The notes below the pieces were generated by a model. It did no database searches. It was not told the DNA's origin and saw only the letters and a list, made by a program, of their open reading frames with translations. Shown here piece by piece: positions 26,856 to 50,309 of a DNA stretch of 64,000 nt (its first letter is position 1; each line of letters begins with the position of its first letter). Position numbers and translations under genes: made by a program. The stretch covers positions 124,001-188,000 of the forward strand of contig JAPPFJ010000007.1 of the NCBI GenBank assembly GCA_028877215.1. Reading direction: 5' to 3'. This DNA comes from Gemmatimonadota bacterium (GTDB lineage Bacteria; Latescibacterota; UBA2968; GCA-2709665).

Positions 26856-26939
26856 TGCATCCTCCGGAATTGACAAAAAAAAACTGAAGCCAAAAAGCCC
26901 CAGAGAACCTGAATACGCAACCAGCTATCGTATGGGTAA

Positions 26940-27029
26940 TCAGCTTTTTAGCGATTTCTTTATAGTGGCTGCAATATGCCTCAAATCACCACTACGCTGA
27001 ATCTGGTCAACCAATTTAACCAAATCCAT
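26940..27029 (-). CDS. Possible 29-residue small protein
   Basis: Eight bases after the thrC stop an ATG opens a 29-codon frame, MDLVKLVDQIQRSGDLRHIA and a basic ATIKKSLKS end, closed by TGA. It looks like an amphipathic helix and occupies the leader of the downstream PLP-enzyme gene. There is no strong ribosome binding site, and chance is a real alternative. It may be a leader peptide or simply non-coding. Confidence 0.25.
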   Translation of the reverse strand: MDLVKLVDQIQRSGDLRHIAATIKKSLKS

Positions 27030-44868: not shown

Positions 44869-46911
44869 TCAGTTTCGGAACAGACTAAACCAGCGACTCG
44901 GACGCTTCACCCGCCGGTTCAGGAACGATTCCAGCCGGTCGCGTTTCAGTACGATCTGGTCCGCAACGCTGGCGGTATCGTCCAGGATCCAGTCCGGAAT
45001 GTCGCTTTTCATCCGGCTCGATGCCATAATGTCCGCCGCAATGATAACCGTGTCCCCAGTGAGCGTCCAACTGCCGGATGGCGGCTTGCGTTCGCGACTG
45101 TATTTGTCAAAGTGCAGCAGGTTCGCGAGTATGAGGCGAGGCCTTTCAAATGCCCGTTCCTGATACTCACTTAAGGTCATCGGAGAACACCAGGCGGGCA
45201 TTTCGATGCCTGGAGGCAGGTTCTCCTGGAAGATACGGCACAGGACAGATGATGACAGCTCAAGTGCGTCCACTTCATCGCCTTCCCTACCTCCAGACTT
45301 GAGCAGTTCATCCATTTCCGATAGCATATGCTTCAGATACGACTGGTAGAGCTCAGTACTCAGCCTTTCGCGAATAGATGCGACTGACCGCTGGAGTCTT
45401 CGCCGGGCCGTGGGATCGTCACCCGGCAAAGACGTCCTCGTATAGATCATGAGACATCGCTTTACGATTTCCGGAAGAAAGCTTCGAGCATCGGCATTCA
45501 TGGAAAGCGCAAAACACGGGTACTCAGAATAGGTGATGGTCTCATCTTTGATAATTTCGGGAGCGTGCCGGCTGAATCGGTCGCGCGTTACGTCATCGAA
45601 GACCACCGGAAATCGCCTATAGGATTCCTGCAACCCACGAAGGTTGCTTCGCGTGAAATACTGCGTCTCGACGATTCGGGGGTGAGAAAACATCGACGCC
45701 ATCAGCGTTTCGATCAGGCTGCTCTTACCGCAGTTGCTTTGCCCGTAGAGTACCGCGAACATCGGCTGGTCGAAGCTGAAACGACTCCGCCGTAGAGCGG
45801 CATTTCGCAAGTCGCACATAAATGGCGAGAAATAGAACCAGCACATAAATGTGAAGTAATCGCGCTGCAATCGGTCAATGTCACCAACAAAGCCATTCTC
45901 ATAATTGCCGAAGAACTCTAACCACGCGTCGACGTCACTACTGACTTGAGACGGGTCAATGTCAAGGCTGAGTTCCTGGCCAGACAGCGAGAAGACACCT
46001 CCGTTGCATGACAGGTACGTTTTTGGTCCCTCATTATCATGGGTGGACGTGCGAATTCGCGTCATCTGCCTGACGATCGACGACGTGAACTTGATTATAC
46101 CCTTTCTGTCCGGCCGGAGGTCGGCCAGGGCTTGCCTGCGAGCCGGCTTGATACGTTCAACCTGCGTCAGGACTCGAGGCACGCTGTATTCGGGCTCGCC
46201 ATCCTCTTCGAACGGCACGAAAATCGACACGCCGTTATTACTGCTTTCAGCCTCCTTTAGTACAGGTGTCTCTTCTATTGGCAGAAGTTCCGCCGGAATG
46301 GGCTGTTTACGCAGTGGTACTCTGCTCGAAGCGATGTCGCGAACCGCGTCATATTGCCGACGATAATGGTCCCACGCAACGTCATCGTTGTCGAACGCGA
46401 TCAATGTTTCGGCCTGCCGCCCCGAGAACGCCGTCTCCGAAAGGTTGGCCGAGCCAACAACGACCCGATGCAGTCCCGCCCGTTTCAGAAGGTAGATCTT
46501 GGCGTGCGCGATCGTGTCCTTGACGACAAAAAAACGGGCGGATTCATCCACAGCACGATCATAGATGAATTTCTTCCGTTCTTCGGACAGACCCTTGATA
46601 CCCACGAAGCCTTTGTTCAGCTTTTCGTCCACGACGGCCTGGAACCCAAGCAGATCGGCAGCGTCGCGTGGCAGGATGCCGCTGTGACCGAAAATGCATT
46701 CGAAATCCTCGTAGTCGTAGTCCCTCAGCAGCCTCATAATCATCGGTATGCTCGGCGTATACGTCAGCGCACGCATCGATGTGAAGCCCCCGAACAGGGA
46801 GTCCCTGTGGAATCTCTCCGAGCCGCTGGCGCTCGCGTAGACGACGTCCAGTCCCTCACTTTGCGTGCGAGCGTGTGGATCATCGAGAGCGAGGTTTTGT
46901 TGGGATTCCAT
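44869..46911 (-). CDS. Phospholipase-D-like nuclease fused to P-loop ATPase
   Basis: This 680-residue protein has two visible parts. Residues about 40-200 form a phospholipase-D-superfamily domain with a single HKD set: H136, K138, GSAN (N156) and E168, the pattern of NgoFVII/BfiI-type nucleases that act as dimers. Residues about 350-500 form an ATPase with P-loop GQSNCGKSS (390-398), Walker B VVFDD (436-440) and LSMNADARSFLPEIVKR, recalling SF3-like or DUF5906-type helicase cores. About 180 residues follow without a known domain. No transmembrane segment is visible. A 63-residue gene precedes it by 12 bases. Nuclease plus NTPase suggests DNA-targeting defence or mobile-element function; no family is recognised. 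Confidence 0.7.
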   Translation of the reverse strand: MESQQNLALDDPHARTQSEGLDVVYASASGSERFHRDSLFGGFTSMRALTYTPSIPMIMRLLRDYDYEDFECIFGHSGILPRDAADLLGFQAVVDEKLNKGFVGIKGLSEERKKFIYDRAVDESARFFVVKDTIAHAKIYLLKRAGLHRVVVGSANLSETAFSGRQAETLIAFDNDDVAWDHYRRQYDAVRDIASSRVPLRKQPIPAELLPIEETPVLKEAESSNNGVSIFVPFEEDGEPEYSVPRVLTQVERIKPARRQALADLRPDRKGIIKFTSSIVRQMTRIRTSTHDNEGPKTYLSCNGGVFSLSGQELSLDIDPSQVSSDVDAWLEFFGNYENGFVGDIDRLQRDYFTFMCWFYFSPFMCDLRNAALRRSRFSFDQPMFAVLYGQSNCGKSSLIETLMASMFSHPRIVETQYFTRSNLRGLQESYRRFPVVFDDVTRDRFSRHAPEIIKDETITYSEYPCFALSMNADARSFLPEIVKRCLMIYTRTSLPGDDPTARRRLQRSVASIRERLSTELYQSYLKHMLSEMDELLKSGGREGDEVDALELSSSVLCRIFQENLPPGIEMPAWCSPMTLSEYQERAFERPRLILANLLHFDKYSRERKPPSGSWTLTGDTVIIAADIMASSRMKSDIPDWILDDTASVADQIVLKRDRLESFLNRRVKRPSRWFSLFRN

Positions 46912-46923
46912 TTCTTGAGGTTT

Positions 46924-47115
46924 TCAGTTTAAGGGCTGTGCGATCGTTCGTCTCGGTCTACGCTTCGGATTACGGGACGGGAAGCTCACTAACTTTCTGC
47001 CACGCAGGCTCTGGCGCTTGAGAATGTCATGGAATATGGCATTCTGGTCATGATTGAACTGCGCTGCATATTCCTCACGCAGTATCTTCGTCTCTTCAAC
47101 GATCGGATCGCACAT
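46924..47115 (-). CDS. Small conserved-type protein beside the PLD-ATPase
   Basis: The 63-residue protein starts MCDPIVEETKILREEYAAQF and continues NHDQNAIFHDILKRQSLRG with a basic C-terminus. The D-PI-V-E-E-x-R/K-x-x-R/x-E-x-A-A-x-F-N-x-D pattern is one I recall from short hypothetical proteins common near toxin-antitoxin genes in environmental bacteria. Start chosen at the ATG with GGAG eight bases upstream. It ends 12 bases before the PLD-ATPase start, so the two are likely one operon. Its activity is unknown. Confidence 0.6.
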   Translation of the reverse strand: MCDPIVEETKILREEYAAQFNHDQNAIFHDILKRQSLRGRKLVSFPSRNPKRRPRRTIAQPLN

Positions 47116-47231
47116 CTTTGGAGCTCCATCAATTCTCACGGGGTACAGATTGTCGGTGGCTCATAATCGCGGTTCCGACAAACGGTTTCGATATCTGACC
47201 GTATTGCTGCGTTGGCGACGTTGTACTTTCG

Positions 47232-47450
47232 CTAAATCGCGATGACCCTTGTCGCGCCTTTGTTCTCCGGCCAGTTGATATGAATACTCACCTCACAATT
47301 CAGGCGCTCGAGGAACCGCATCAGCCGTTCGACGCTGTAATACCTTAACTTGCCGCGCTTGAGCCTGGAGATCTCAGGCTGCTTCACGCCAATAATCCTT
47401 GCGGCCTTTGTCTGAGTCAGCCTCCGAGTCAGCGAAACATTCGATTCACT
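47232..47450 (-). pseudogene. 5'-truncated XRE/HigA-type antitoxin remnant
   Basis: An open frame of 72 codons runs from just inside the protease stop to TAG at 47232-47234 with no normal start codon at its beginning. It reads RRLTQTKAARIIGVKQPEISRLKRGKL and SVERLMRFLERLNCEVSI, the helix-turn-helix and tail of XRE antitoxins that partner HigB/RelE-type toxins. The first 25-30 residues of such proteins are missing and no toxin gene is next to it. It is a remnant, or an N-terminally shortened protein starting from the GTG inside. The gap 47116-47231 holds no gene. Confidence 0.7.
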
Positions 47451-47808
47451 TCAACAAAATCGCCGGTAACCGTTTCAACTCCTGGTTGCGCGGATCCACC
47501 TCGAAACCACCTGATTCAAGTGCCGTCACGCCAAGCAGCGGTTCCGCACCATCCTCGCCGTATACGATGGTGCCGCCCACGACCTCTCCCTCGAATTCCA
47601 GGTCGGCGGTGGTGATCTCCAGACTGATGCCGGTCCCATCCGCGAGGGTGTGCTCGCGACTGCCTTTCGGCTTAAGTCCGATCGCTTCCAACCGAGCCCT
47701 GGGCACGAGCGAGTCGAACGCGCCAGTGTCCACCAGGAATGTTCCGGTCCAGCTTCGCTGCAGATCGGCAGGATTTCGAATCGTTACGTCAACGTACGTC
47801 GCGCCCAT
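47446..47808 (-). CDS. Retropepsin-like (clan AA) aspartic protease
   Basis: The 120-residue protein is a single-domain aspartic protease of the retroviral type, needing a dimer for activity. It has the catalytic LVDTGAFDSLVP with D27-T28-G29, hydrophobic strands, and the C-terminal PLLGVTALESGGFEVDP element. There is no signal peptide or membrane segment. Its stop overlaps the antitoxin remnant. Bacterial single-domain retropepsins of this size are widespread near accessory genes, with poorly known targets. Confidence 0.8.
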   Translation of the reverse strand: MGATYVDVTIRNPADLQRSWTGTFLVDTGAFDSLVPRARLEAIGLKPKGSREHTLADGTGISLEITTADLEFEGEVVGGTIVYGEDGAEPLLGVTALESGGFEVDPRNQELKRLPAILLK

Positions 47809-47846
47809 CGTGTCACTCCTTTCGGCTTGTCCAGCACTCAGATAAT

Positions 47847-48006
47847 CAGCCCGTTGAAAAAGCCCATCCGGGCTACGGCCGGCCCTTGCGATCGAAATAC
47901 TGCGTTGCGCGCCCTCGCCGAATCGCTCGATGGGACTCGGTTGCGCGCCTTGTCTTCGGCCGCAATGGCTCGGCCTCGCCTGCAGAGCGACTTTATCAAC
48001 GGACTG
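47847..48006. repeat. MITE-like palindromic-ended repeat, copy 3
   Basis: The left end CAGCCCGTTGAAAAAGCCC and the right end (minus strand) CAGTCCGTTGATAAAGTCGC match over about 18 bases as terminal inverted repeats, 15 identical. The interior aligns to copy 2 over its whole length except for one block. It sits between the retropepsin gene and the ABC binding-protein gene. The region 47809-48046 contains no other feature. Confidence 0.78.
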
Positions 48007-48046
48007 TTAATATCGCCGAAAAGGACGCTGCAAACAATGTGCCAAT

Positions 48047-49147
48047 TCAACGCGCCAGCCAGGCGCTGAAGCGCTCGTTCATTTCGTCCAGATGATCGCT
48101 CCACCATTCCCAGTTGTTGTGCAGGGCGCGCTTCACGTTCTGAGGGCTGGTGGGCATGTGCGGAATCATATCCACGCCTTTTTCTGCATGCGTCGAAATC
48201 AGCGCCATCGCCGAGCGACGCGTCGGGCTATAGGAAATATATCGGCCCACACCGGCGATGGCCCGCGCGCTTGAGGCGAAGTTGACGAACTTCCTCGCCG
48301 CTTCGAGGTTGGGGGTGCCCGCGACAATGCCCAGTCCGCCGGTATCGAGAACCTGGCCGTCCCACACCACGACAAAGGGCTGGTCTTCCAGCACCTGCGC
48401 GTTGAAGATACGACCGTTGTAGGCCGTACTCATAGCGACCTCTCCGTCCGCCAGCATTTGCGGCGGCTGCGCCCCCGCCTCCCACCATACGATGTGCTCC
48501 TTGATCGTGTCCAGCTTTCGGAACGCGCGGTCCACGCCCGCGGGCGTGTCGAGCGCGGCGTAGACGGAGTCGATGGGTACGCCGTCGGCCATCAACGCGA
48601 ACTCCAGGTTCACCAGTGGAGATCGGCGCATGCCTCGGCGCCCAGGGAACTTCACCAGATCGAAAAAGTCTGTGATCGTGGCCGGTTTGTCGCCCTTGAT
48701 GTTCTTCTTGTTGTAGGCATACACTGTCGAGTAGAAAATCGTTGCAGGTCCACAATCGGTCTGCGTGCCCGGTACAAAGTCCTCCTCAGCGGGCGTGCCG
48801 TCGGGCCCCGCGGGAAGCGAACCCACGGCAATCGGTTCCAGCAGACCCTCGTCGCAGCCGCGCACCAGGTCTGGAATCTCCAGGTCCACAACGTCCCAGT
48901 AGACATTGCCCACGTCCACCTGCGCACGGATCTGCGCCAGGCCGCCGTTGTAGTCTTCCAGGTTAATCGCGATGCCCGTTTCGGCGGTGAATGTCTCGTG
49001 GTACCCTTTGACGCACGCGCGGGCATAGGACCCGCCCCAGGAAACAACCGTCAATGGACGGTCATCGGCGGCGGCTGTGCCCGCGGTCAATATGGACAGT
49101 CCTGCCAGCGACGCGATGCGAACGACCCTGCTTAATACGTCCTTCAT
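48047..49147 (-). CDS. ABC transporter substrate-binding protein, second copy
   Basis: The 366-residue protein has a signal peptide (about residues 1-27, ASLAGLSILTAGTAAA) and the polyamine-type solute-binding signature TVVSWGGSYARACVKGYHETFTAETG, with NLEDYNGGLAQIRAQ and WDVVDLEIPDL. It is a close tandem paralogue of the gene at 49209-50309, mostly identical along the length. Differences cluster near residues 140-170. It is the promoter-distal member of the import operon. The ligand is probably a polyamine or related amine, but is not proven. Confidence 0.85.
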   Translation of the reverse strand: MKDVLSRVVRIASLAGLSILTAGTAAADDRPLTVVSWGGSYARACVKGYHETFTAETGIAINLEDYNGGLAQIRAQVDVGNVYWDVVDLEIPDLVRGCDEGLLEPIAVGSLPAGPDGTPAEEDFVPGTQTDCGPATIFYSTVYAYNKKNIKGDKPATITDFFDLVKFPGRRGMRRSPLVNLEFALMADGVPIDSVYAALDTPAGVDRAFRKLDTIKEHIVWWEAGAQPPQMLADGEVAMSTAYNGRIFNAQVLEDQPFVVVWDGQVLDTGGLGIVAGTPNLEAARKFVNFASSARAIAGVGRYISYSPTRRSAMALISTHAEKGVDMIPHMPTSPQNVKRALHNNWEWWSDHLDEMNERFSAWLAR

Positions 49148-49208
49148 GATGATTCCTCCTCGTCATCCGTTCCGACAATCTGCAGCGGGTGGTGAGTAAC
49201 CGGCTGGT

Positions 49209-50309
49209 TCAGCGCGCCAGCCACGCGCTGAAACGCTCGTTCATCTCGTCCAGGTGATCGCTCCACCACGCCCAGTCGCTGCGCAGGGCGCGCTTCACGT
49301 TCTCCGGGCTGGTGGGCATGTGGGGATTCATGTCGACGCCCTTCTCGGCGTGCGTCGCGATCAGCGCCATCGCCGAACGGCGCGTCGGGCTGTATGCGAT
49401 GTACCGGCCGACACCGGCCAGGGACTCCGCACTCGTGGCAAACCTGAGGAACCGCCTGGCTGCTTCCAGGTTGCGCGTGCCGGCCACGATACCCAGCCCC
49501 GCCGTGTAGTAGACCTGGCTGTCCCACACGACCACAAAGGGCTGTTTTTCGAGCACCTGTGCATTGAAAATGCGCCCGTTATAGGCCGTGGTCATCGCCA
49601 CCTCTCCGTCGGCCAGCATTTGCGGAGGCTGCGCCCCGGCCTCCCACCACACAATGTATTCCTTGATCGTATCCAGTTTTCGGAAGGCGCGGTCCACGCC
49701 GGCGGGCGTGTCGAGCGCGGCGTATACCGAATCGATCGGCACCCCGTCGGCCATCAGCGCGAATTCCATATTCACCTGCGGCGAGCGACGCATGCCGCGA
49801 CGGCCCGGAAACGTCTCCAGATCGAAGAAGTCGGCGATGGTTTCCGGTTTATCGCCCTGGAAATGCTTCCAGTTGTACGCAAAAATCGTGGAACCGAACA
49901 ACGACGTCGGCCCGCAGTCCGTCATCGTTCCGGGCAGAAAGTCCTCCGCAGCGGGCGTACCGTCGGCGCCTGCCGGGAAGGATTCCACGTCCACGGGTAC
50001 GAGCAGGCCCTCGTCGCATCCGGCAACGAGGTCGGCAATCTCGAGGTCCACCACGTCCCAGAAAACGTTGCCCACGTCCACCTGAGCGCGTACCTGCGCC
50101 AGACCGCCATTGTAGTCTTCCAGATTGATCGGGATACCCGTCTGCGCGGTGAACCGCTCGTGGTAACCCTTGACACAGGCTTGCGCGTAGGACCCGCCCC
50201 ACGAAACGACGGTCAGCGGCCGGTCGCCGGCGCCGGAGGGGATCACAATCGTCAGAGACAATATAACCGCATACGCGACCGGCACGATATTCTTGCCGAC
50301 GTGGTTCAT
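49209..50309 (-). CDS. ABC transporter substrate-binding protein, first copy
   Basis: The 366-residue protein has a signal peptide (VAYAVILSLTIVIPSGAG) and the same WGGSYAQACVKGYHERFTAQTG and LEDYNGGLAQVRAQVDVGN features as the following copy. It belongs to the spermidine/putrescine-type family 1 of binding proteins. Its ATG overlaps the ATPase stop as ATGA. Two nearly equal binding proteins in one operon suggest duplication for dosage or altered ligand choice. Confidence 0.86.
   Translation of the reverse strand: MNHVGKNIVPVAYAVILSLTIVIPSGAGDRPLTVVSWGGSYAQACVKGYHERFTAQTGIPINLEDYNGGLAQVRAQVDVGNVFWDVVDLEIADLVAGCDEGLLVPVDVESFPAGADGTPAAEDFLPGTMTDCGPTSLFGSTIFAYNWKHFQGDKPETIADFFDLETFPGRRGMRRSPQVNMEFALMADGVPIDSVYAALDTPAGVDRAFRKLDTIKEYIVWWEAGAQPPQMLADGEVAMTTAYNGRIFNAQVLEKQPFVVVWDSQVYYTAGLGIVAGTRNLEAARRFLRFATSAESLAGVGRYIAYSPTRRSAMALIATHAEKGVDMNPHMPTSPENVKRALRSDWAWWSDHLDEMNERFSAWLAR

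Follow-up and report, generated by a model that had tools for sequence, protein, structure and literature searches.

A probable stand-alone, motor-bearing relative of the Argonaute-associated nuclease AgaP in a Gemmatimonadota bacterium

The stretch of DNA analysed here, hereafter the window, comprises 64,000 nucleotides of contig JAPPFJ010000007.1 of a Gemmatimonadota bacterium (assembly GCA_028877215.1, positions 124,001 to 188,000), and it raises the question of what a bacterial protein that joins an HKD nuclease of the phospholipase D (PLD) type to a motor of its own might do, and with which partner, if any. The gene in question lies on the minus strand at 44869..46911. At odds slightly better than even (a probability of about 0.52), we read its product as a stand-alone relative of the AgaP-type proteins of haloarchaeal Argonaute-PLD immunity, likely a restriction machine consisting of one protein, which would load onto invading or replicating extrachromosomal DNA and cut it, no Argonaute having been found in its genome.

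Architecture and predicted folds

The features of the gene, all on the minus strand, are given below; invariance refers to an alignment of the window protein with 84 selected relatives.

44869..46911, minus: 680-codon gene for an N-terminal HKD nuclease and a C-terminal helicase predicted to be Cch/SaPI-Rep-like; a solo AgaP-like protein
46297..46842, minus: HKD (PLD-type) nuclease domain, about residues 24-205
46498..46506, minus: HxK catalytic motif with H136 and K138, invariant in 85/85
46444..46455, minus: GSxN half of the HKD motif, residues 153-156; G153, S154 and N156 invariant in 85/85
44872..46026, minus: motor half (helicase core and C-terminal tail), residues 296-680; separate structure model, matching Cch and SaPIBov1 Rep
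45721..45744, minus: Walker A GQSNCGKS, residues 390-397; G390, G395 and K396 invariant, GK[ST] in 85/85
45592..45606, minus: Walker B VVFDD, residues 436-440; F438, D439 and D440 invariant in 85/85
45496..45504, minus: SMN, residues 470-472, which we take to be motif C of the superfamily 3 (SF3) type; N472 invariant in 85/85
45457..45462, minus: K484-R485, candidate arginine finger; both invariant in 85/85

A first-pass annotation of the window had proposed a nuclease-ATPase fusion in a single frame, and this is borne out by the open reading frame (ORF) at 44869-46911, in which both domains exceed their Pfam cut-offs. RE_NgoFVII (PF09565) is matched over residues 117-186 with 25.7 bits against a cut-off of 23.8, and RNA_helicase (PF00910) over residues 387-482 only barely, with 22.1 against 21.5 bits. 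PF00910 on its own is weak, and we retain the SF3 label because the folds described below agree with it. The residues and motifs picked out earlier (H136, K138, N156, E168, GQSNCGKS and VVFDD) are all in place, and H136, K138, G153, S154, N156 and E168 of the nuclease half as well as G390, G395, K396, D439, D440, N472, K484 and R485 of the motor half are unchanging across the 85 aligned sequences. Searches of PADLOC, NCBIfam and PHROGs returned short or weak matches only, the best being to ZacB, which spans 40 residues of the HKD part at E 7.3e-6; the matches to mad3 and mad8 (the latter at E 8e-4) look like generic ABC/ATPase matches.

In predicted structures, the HKD half finds its best fold match in the restriction enzyme R.NgoAVII, with an alignment that spans residues 1-175 only of PDB entry 4rct. 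No DNA-recognition domain of the NgoAVII/NgoFVII/BfiI kind was seen in the nuclease-motor protein, a separate fold of residues 206-295 being outside this comparison. The motor half (residues 296-680), modelled separately from 44 of the 48 prepared sequences with the near-copies L009, L011, L023 and L024 excluded (L numbers denote loci), reached a pLDDT of 88.8 and a pTM of 0.85. Its predicted fold is closest to those of Cch of SCCmec and Rep of SaPIBov1, both helicases of mobile elements; the structural alignment is thinly covered past model position 304 (protein residue about 600), and its extreme tail end rests on the two top matches. The 180-residue tail that had been described as untyped belongs to this matched half. 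Matches to SauUSI and to clamp loaders were discounted as general P-loop matches.

No link to Cch was obtained through sequence. DUF927, the sequence family of Cch and SaPIBov1 Rep, is absent among the matches of the window protein at E up to 1 and has no match in its own genome, and members for a comparison by this route are lacking in 64 genomes. Of the 10 matches that the family profile has among the sequences of solved structures at E up to 10, we count none as kin; the best, at E 0.005, is a G protein aligned over the P-loop. The first-pass annotation had held that placing the whole protein in a known mobile-element replication or restriction family would speak against a new defence system; this is borne out in part, with a nuclease half resembling a restriction family and a motor half resembling a mobile-element replication family.

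Relation to AgaP and the search for Argonaute

On the haloarchaeal plasmid NZ_CP027032, a homologue of the window protein comes after a Piwi gene with which it overlaps by 8 bases; the two proteins share 22% identity over 502 aminoacids (BLASTP, E 2e-15 for the single comparison), and the Piwi-linked protein matches PF06087. A search initiated with this homologue found 172 relatives, and the named ones among the 120 listed are from haloarchaea, several of them carrying the name tyrosyl-DNA phosphodiesterase. Profile-profile comparison (hhalign) aligns the window family with this AgaP-type family with a probability of 99.5% and an E of 3.6e-22 over 566 columns, covering window residues 27-667, and the precomputed domain PF27394 is found in nearly all listed members of both families. 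The published catalytic positions of AgaP are H105, K107, G157, S158 and N160 (PMC11442185), and among the AgaP-type relatives are proteins whose HxK lies at 105 and whose GSxN lies at 155-159, one having the two motifs at exactly 105 and 157. On the grounds of Piwi adjacency and residue numbering, we tie this family to the AgaP of Natrinema pellirubrum. The AgaP-type proteins also carry motor motifs, with G-x4-GK, the second Asp of the DD pair and the Asn of motif C each present in 30/30 aligned members. Judged by these sequence comparisons, the nuclease-motor gene is a distant AgaP-type relative: AgaP-like, motor-bearing and Argonaute-free.

According to the AgaP study (PMC11442185), AgaP by itself is toxic and its toxicity is suppressed by Argonaute; plasmid resistance needs AgaP and its catalytic residues, virus immunity is enhanced by AgaP, and the system, APAP, lowers viral DNA without noticeable abortive infection. 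The mechanism proposed there is that of a nonspecific nuclease restrained by Argonaute. ATPase, P-loop and Walker do not occur in the main text of the study, and 'helicase' occurs 7 times, for other proteins where the context is shown. PLD proteins beside Argonautes are mentioned in older surveys (PMC6299218). A defence role for the window protein is plausible because the whole protein is homologous to the AgaP-type proteins of Argonaute-PLD immunity. The annotation's suggestion that the fusion matches no known system holds insofar as no PADLOC assignment beyond the short or weak matches was obtained.

Piwi (PF02171) does not exceed its cut-off in any of the 43 carrier genomes searched, the window's own included, with one weak partial match among them; the bins of L027, L048, L050, L053 and L055 were left out of this set. 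It is likewise absent from the five bacterial plasmids examined and present on the haloarchaeal plasmid. As no Argonaute gene was found in the genome, the protein would likely act alone against invading DNA. That its partner is an Argonaute encoded at some other place in the genome would suit its family relation to AgaP, but we hold this to be extremely improbable given the 0/43 result and the 98.6% completeness of the window genome. Among 14 control genomes the Piwi search was positive in Methanocaldococcus only. A related protein, P0317, is recorded under Haloferax volcanii, a species that is one of the 14 genomes of a second control set; its genome would lack Piwi if the two 14-genome sets coincide.

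How might such a protein work? The motor and the C-terminal tail would assemble as a ring on DNA, like Cch and MCM, and ATP hydrolysis would move or open the DNA; the HKD domains may pair between subunits, as in single-HKD restriction nucleases, and would then cut with no metal needed, by way of a phosphohistidine intermediate. In haloarchaeal APAP the nuclease is checked by Argonaute, whereas here the gate would be the ATPase cycle itself. A preference for extrachromosomal DNA would carry over from AgaP by analogy. More tentatively, and with considerable doubt, a self-sufficient one-gene form of immunity may have arisen in which an initiator-type helicase captured from a mobile element was fused to an HKD nuclease, so that an origin-opening machine came to find and cut replicating invader DNA; the haloarchaeal Argonaute-PLD systems would then be derived from this older motor-nuclease, with Argonaute added as guide and brake.

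A different use of the same parts would be an abortive-infection toxin, its nuclease restrained by the motor and the cell killed once an invader is sensed. The toxicity of AgaP alone (PMC11442185) and the loss of the gene in the window's genus would fit such a toxin, but APAP suppressed viral DNA without noticeable abortive infection in the same study and no conserved linked antitoxin was seen; we consider it very unlikely.

Carriers, surroundings and rival explanations

The family is large. A protein-database search with the window protein as query found at least 644 relatives at E up to 0.001, and one with a mixed alignment as query at least 1119 at E up to 0.01, each having scored roughly 8000 best candidates, with 120 matches listed. 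A scan of 84,980 species genomes with two sequence patterns, and hence a lower bound, gave 54 loci, every one titled as a metagenome-assembled genome (MAG). Carriers are mostly Chloroflexota (SAR202, Dehalococcoidia and Caldilineaceae), followed by Pseudomonadales and other Gammaproteobacteria, Acidimicrobiia and unplaced bacteria, with single bins titled Gemmatimonadota, Latescibacterota, Entotheonella and Deltaproteobacteria and a weak outlier, L055, from Acidobacteriaceae; judged by isolate names, many of these bins presumably come from marine sponges. In the tree, the window protein stands beside that of a Latescibacterota bin, within a supported set (100/99) that is otherwise Chloroflexota, and phylum labels are strongly clustered throughout. 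We read this as a few inter-phylum transfers atop long vertical descent, the pattern being no proof of transfer.

Purifying selection acts on the gene where it is kept: the ratio of nonsynonymous to synonymous substitution rates (dN/dS) is 0.06-0.16 in 12 of the 13 pairs, same-bin copies among them, and the remaining pair, L003-L004, has no dS value. The tree and these pairs exclude L002 (broken by a stop), L041, L048, L050, L052 and L053 (in pieces or broken) and the weak L055. Together with the 644 relatives, the dN/dS values indicate that the ORF is not a chance one, and the sequences fit a gene that works where it is kept. Of 60 genomes surrounding that of the window, 13 have a match to the gene, namely the own genome, one congener with an internal stop, two congeners with remnants only, and nine of the same order, where the match is mostly near 41% and in one case split into two pieces. 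Its patchy carriage across phyla, like its decay inside the genus, is in keeping with an accessory gene that is costly.

Could the gene belong to chromosomal DNA repair or recombination instead, its motor opening stalled or broken DNA, its HKD domain trimming ends or removing adducts, and AgaP a later recruit of Argonaute? The gene stands alone among metabolic genes, its synteny is conserved in some lineages, it is under purifying selection, and the haloarchaeal relatives named tyrosyl-DNA phosphodiesterase, with the Piwi-linked one matching PF06087, would also agree with repair. We nevertheless think this unlikely, given the patchy distribution, the decay within one genus and the presence, in some genomes, of several copies. 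Losses of this kind are rare among core repair genes. The best fold match of the HKD half, R.NgoAVII, is moreover a restriction enzyme, while the lack of TDP1 in the top rows excludes nothing.

Two or more full-length copies occur in 6 of the 43 carrier genomes, with a maximum of five. In SAR202 bins, near-identical copies (about 92-94%; L021-L024 and L008-L011) lie at mostly unrelated sites; in 12/12 such pairs homology stops 0-115 bases past the stop codon, and in 11/12 it begins within about 200 bases ahead of the start codon, the pair L008-L011 additionally having about 1.7 kb upstream in common. The borders vary between pairs, without the fixed termini of a transposon, and the copies represent spread of a single gene. 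Separately, L052 and L067, from genomes of different groups, hold nuclease genes whose middle is deleted and whose N- and C-terminal ends are joined.

The copies also bear on whether the protein initiates the replication of a mobile element. An HKD nuclease would then have replaced the HUH nicking domain that Rep proteins have, and the protein would nick an origin, stay covalently attached and unwind the DNA. The nearness of the motor half to Cch and SaPIBov1 Rep in fold, its SF3-like motifs and the near-identical SAR202 copies, whose homology runs out at the stop codon or close to it, would suit an initiator, as would the slight excess of flanks with a 10-mer in three or more copies beside the family gene (10/92 against 25/421 beside other genes). 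However, most flanks have none and the window is without an iteron or repeat array, any 10-mer there having at most 2 copies; the copy borders are not fixed, DUF927 does not match, two Komagataeibacter plasmids examined encode their own replication initiator A, and AgaP restricts plasmids and does not replicate them (PMC11442185). An initiator appears quite unlikely to us.

Several observations weigh against our preferred reading of a stand-alone AgaP-type restriction protein, the function of which is inferred from sequence, predicted folds and analogy. Homology to AgaP was reached through AgaP-type relatives and not with the sequence of N. pellirubrum AgaP itself, identity to the AgaP-type family is only 17-22%, and 24 of 30 aligned AgaP-type members read GKGT (6 GKDK) where the window family reads GK[ST]. 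The Piwi search covers metagenome bins, which may be incomplete (the window genome, 98.6% complete, is 7.4% contaminated). No relative was found in 50,697 phage records or in viral contigs at the sensitivity used, and tblastn matches occur in only 9 plasmid records, all below 60% identity: seven from Acetobacter and Komagataeibacter (26-28% identity, with more than 80% of the query covered), one piece from Thermus and one haloarchaeal plasmid. The conserved chromosomal synteny in some lineages is as expected of a housekeeping gene, and the Pfam names near the gene are mostly metabolic, the six nearest sizeable neighbours in the window being lipoprotein-like TPR, beta-propeller, oxidoreductase and solute-transport genes.

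Nor are the carrier loci plain defence islands. We compared 121 neighbour genes (at least 100 aminoacids, about 6 kb per side) at 10 carrier loci, all on complete chromosomes and including the broken copy L052, with 105 genes from 10 control regions of the same chromosomes. The carrier neighbours matched HEC-01A, AriA and methyltransferase models, and the control stretches L117-L126 matched DISARM (DrmB, DrmC and DrmMII) and Druantia D models (PADLOC), which hints at the frequency that defence genes may have here. PADLOC families matched at E up to 1e-10 number 90 at carrier loci and 65 in controls; the best 25 of each are listed, and since one gene can match many families these are not gene counts. 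As the listed matches fall on one or two genes each, the higher raw count is not taken as enrichment. The co-occurrence with known defence islands that the first-pass annotation had proposed to look for is thus not clearly supported, the carrier loci showing no clear excess over the controls.

Neighbour clustering over the 54 loci and the window found no conserved companion gene, the widest other cluster comprising 10 loci. The window gene is flanked by a Gfo/Idh-type oxidoreductase and, past the small genes listed next, by a solute-transport set.

46924..47115, minus: 63-codon small gene upstream, a neighbour and no partner; matches in 18/31 genomes
47232..47387, minus: N-terminally truncated HTH_37 antitoxin-like stub, neighbour only; profile match
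47446..47808, minus: clan AA aspartic protease, retropepsin-like, neighbour only; profile match
47842..48011, plus: MITE-like repeat (miniature inverted-repeat transposable element) with 21-nt inverted ends, neighbour only; absent from the site in genome G001

All four had been noted before, and each is recovered. The small gene has 63 codons from an internal ATG (71 from a GTG) and ends 12 bases ahead of the nuclease start; the match of the stub to HTH_37 begins only at profile position 43 of 80, as for a 5'-truncated XRE antitoxin; the retropepsin scores 70.7 bits with TIGR03698 against 57.35; and the repeat of about 165 bp has 21-nt arms that are 81% complementary. The repeat has at least 41 matches (86-100%) in its own genome, itself included (40 scored of 162 first-look candidates), at least 32 in each of three congeners and none in 22 other relatives at E 1e-10, and is a genus-specific MITE-like family.

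Their earlier grouping with the nuclease as one accessory island does not survive, the parts being present or absent separately in close relatives. At the G001 locus the retropepsin is kept and the repeat gone; at G002 the small-gene and XRE stretch is kept, and the retropepsin-repeat stretch and most of the nuclease gene are gone; and at G003 nothing aligns to 46913-48047, the span of all four, and the nuclease gene lacks its middle. The small gene (46924-47139), a dispersed family with a core near DPIVxEVRxxRDxxAxxFxYD, has up to 8 matches in one of its 18 genomes (own included), adjoins the nuclease, or what is left of it, in G000, G001 and G002 alone and elsewhere lies on other contigs or far away; the two co-cluster only in the window and L002. 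It is not conserved beside the nuclease outside the genus, and the two-gene module once suggested is dropped, leaving a one-gene fusion with a plausible defence role. Around five dispersed copies that were inspected, the neighbouring genes include one cupin and one with a sub-threshold PIN match, by which an antitoxin role is conceivable.

Two side observations concern the rest of the window. Tandem genes for solute-binding proteins, 79% identical, lie at 48047-50309 adjoining an ABC ATPase gene, and a SAM-alpha riboswitch (43.9 bits) lies on the minus strand at 26928-27002.

Comparison with known systems

APAP has so far been described as an Argonaute with a PLD nuclease. Should that nuclease bear a Cch/SaPI-Rep-like motor, an ATP-driven step would have to enter the mechanism put forward for AgaP. 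The existence of a bacterial branch in which no Argonaute was found suggests that the nuclease-motor persists where a guide protein is lacking. This branch would offer a simple one-gene setting for how an HKD motor distinguishes invader from self, with the Haloferax volcanii relative P0317, linked to its genome by record name only, as a potential genetic model.

With SCCmec Cch and SaPIBov1 Rep, the window protein shares the predicted helicase fold of its motor half; it differs in lacking a DUF927 match and an iteron array and in being fused to a nuclease. NgoAVII, NgoFVII and BfiI have the same nuclease domain by Pfam and fold, whereas the window protein bears its own motor, and no DNA-recognition domain of their kind was seen in it. 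SauUSI and the HKD-SF2 helicase fusions (PbeA; PMC10853773) similarly combine an HKD nuclease and a DNA motor in one chain. In HUH-SF3 Rep proteins, by contrast, the nuclease is HUH and not HKD. A literature search, with most subscription papers and preprints outside its scope, found no described stand-alone HKD and SF3/MCM family.

The nearest precedent in logic, by analogy, appears to be BrxL-HKD, in which an HKD domain is fused to an MCM-type AAA+ motor in defence; BrxL with a C-terminal HKD is reported in 1030 instances among 2913 Type-1 BREX taxa with BrxL (PMC12839542). There the HKD is C-terminal and reads HRD, whereas it is N-terminal in the window protein, and the six nearest sizeable neighbours of the window gene (about 5 kb per side) have no match to BREX models (BrxC, methyltransferase or PglZ) at E up to 1e-5. 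Nor do these six include a methyltransferase that might be the cognate one of an NgoFVII-type restriction enzyme.

The closest relative is AgaP of haloarchaeal APAP (long-A Argonaute and PLD; PMC11442185), with full-length homology, an N-terminal HKD, a C-terminal P-loop half, a similar length (680 aminoacids in the window against mostly about 660-770) and the HxK and GSxN catalytic residues in common. The window gene differs in being bacterial, in having no adjacent or genomic Argonaute found, in its P-loop as given above, and in the spacing of the HxK and GSxN starts, which is 17 residues in the window and more than 40 in 75 of the 120 listed haloarchaeal-family relatives (at most 40 in 43, unread in 2). 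PF27394, common to both, shows that the shared domain is already recognised by Pfam.

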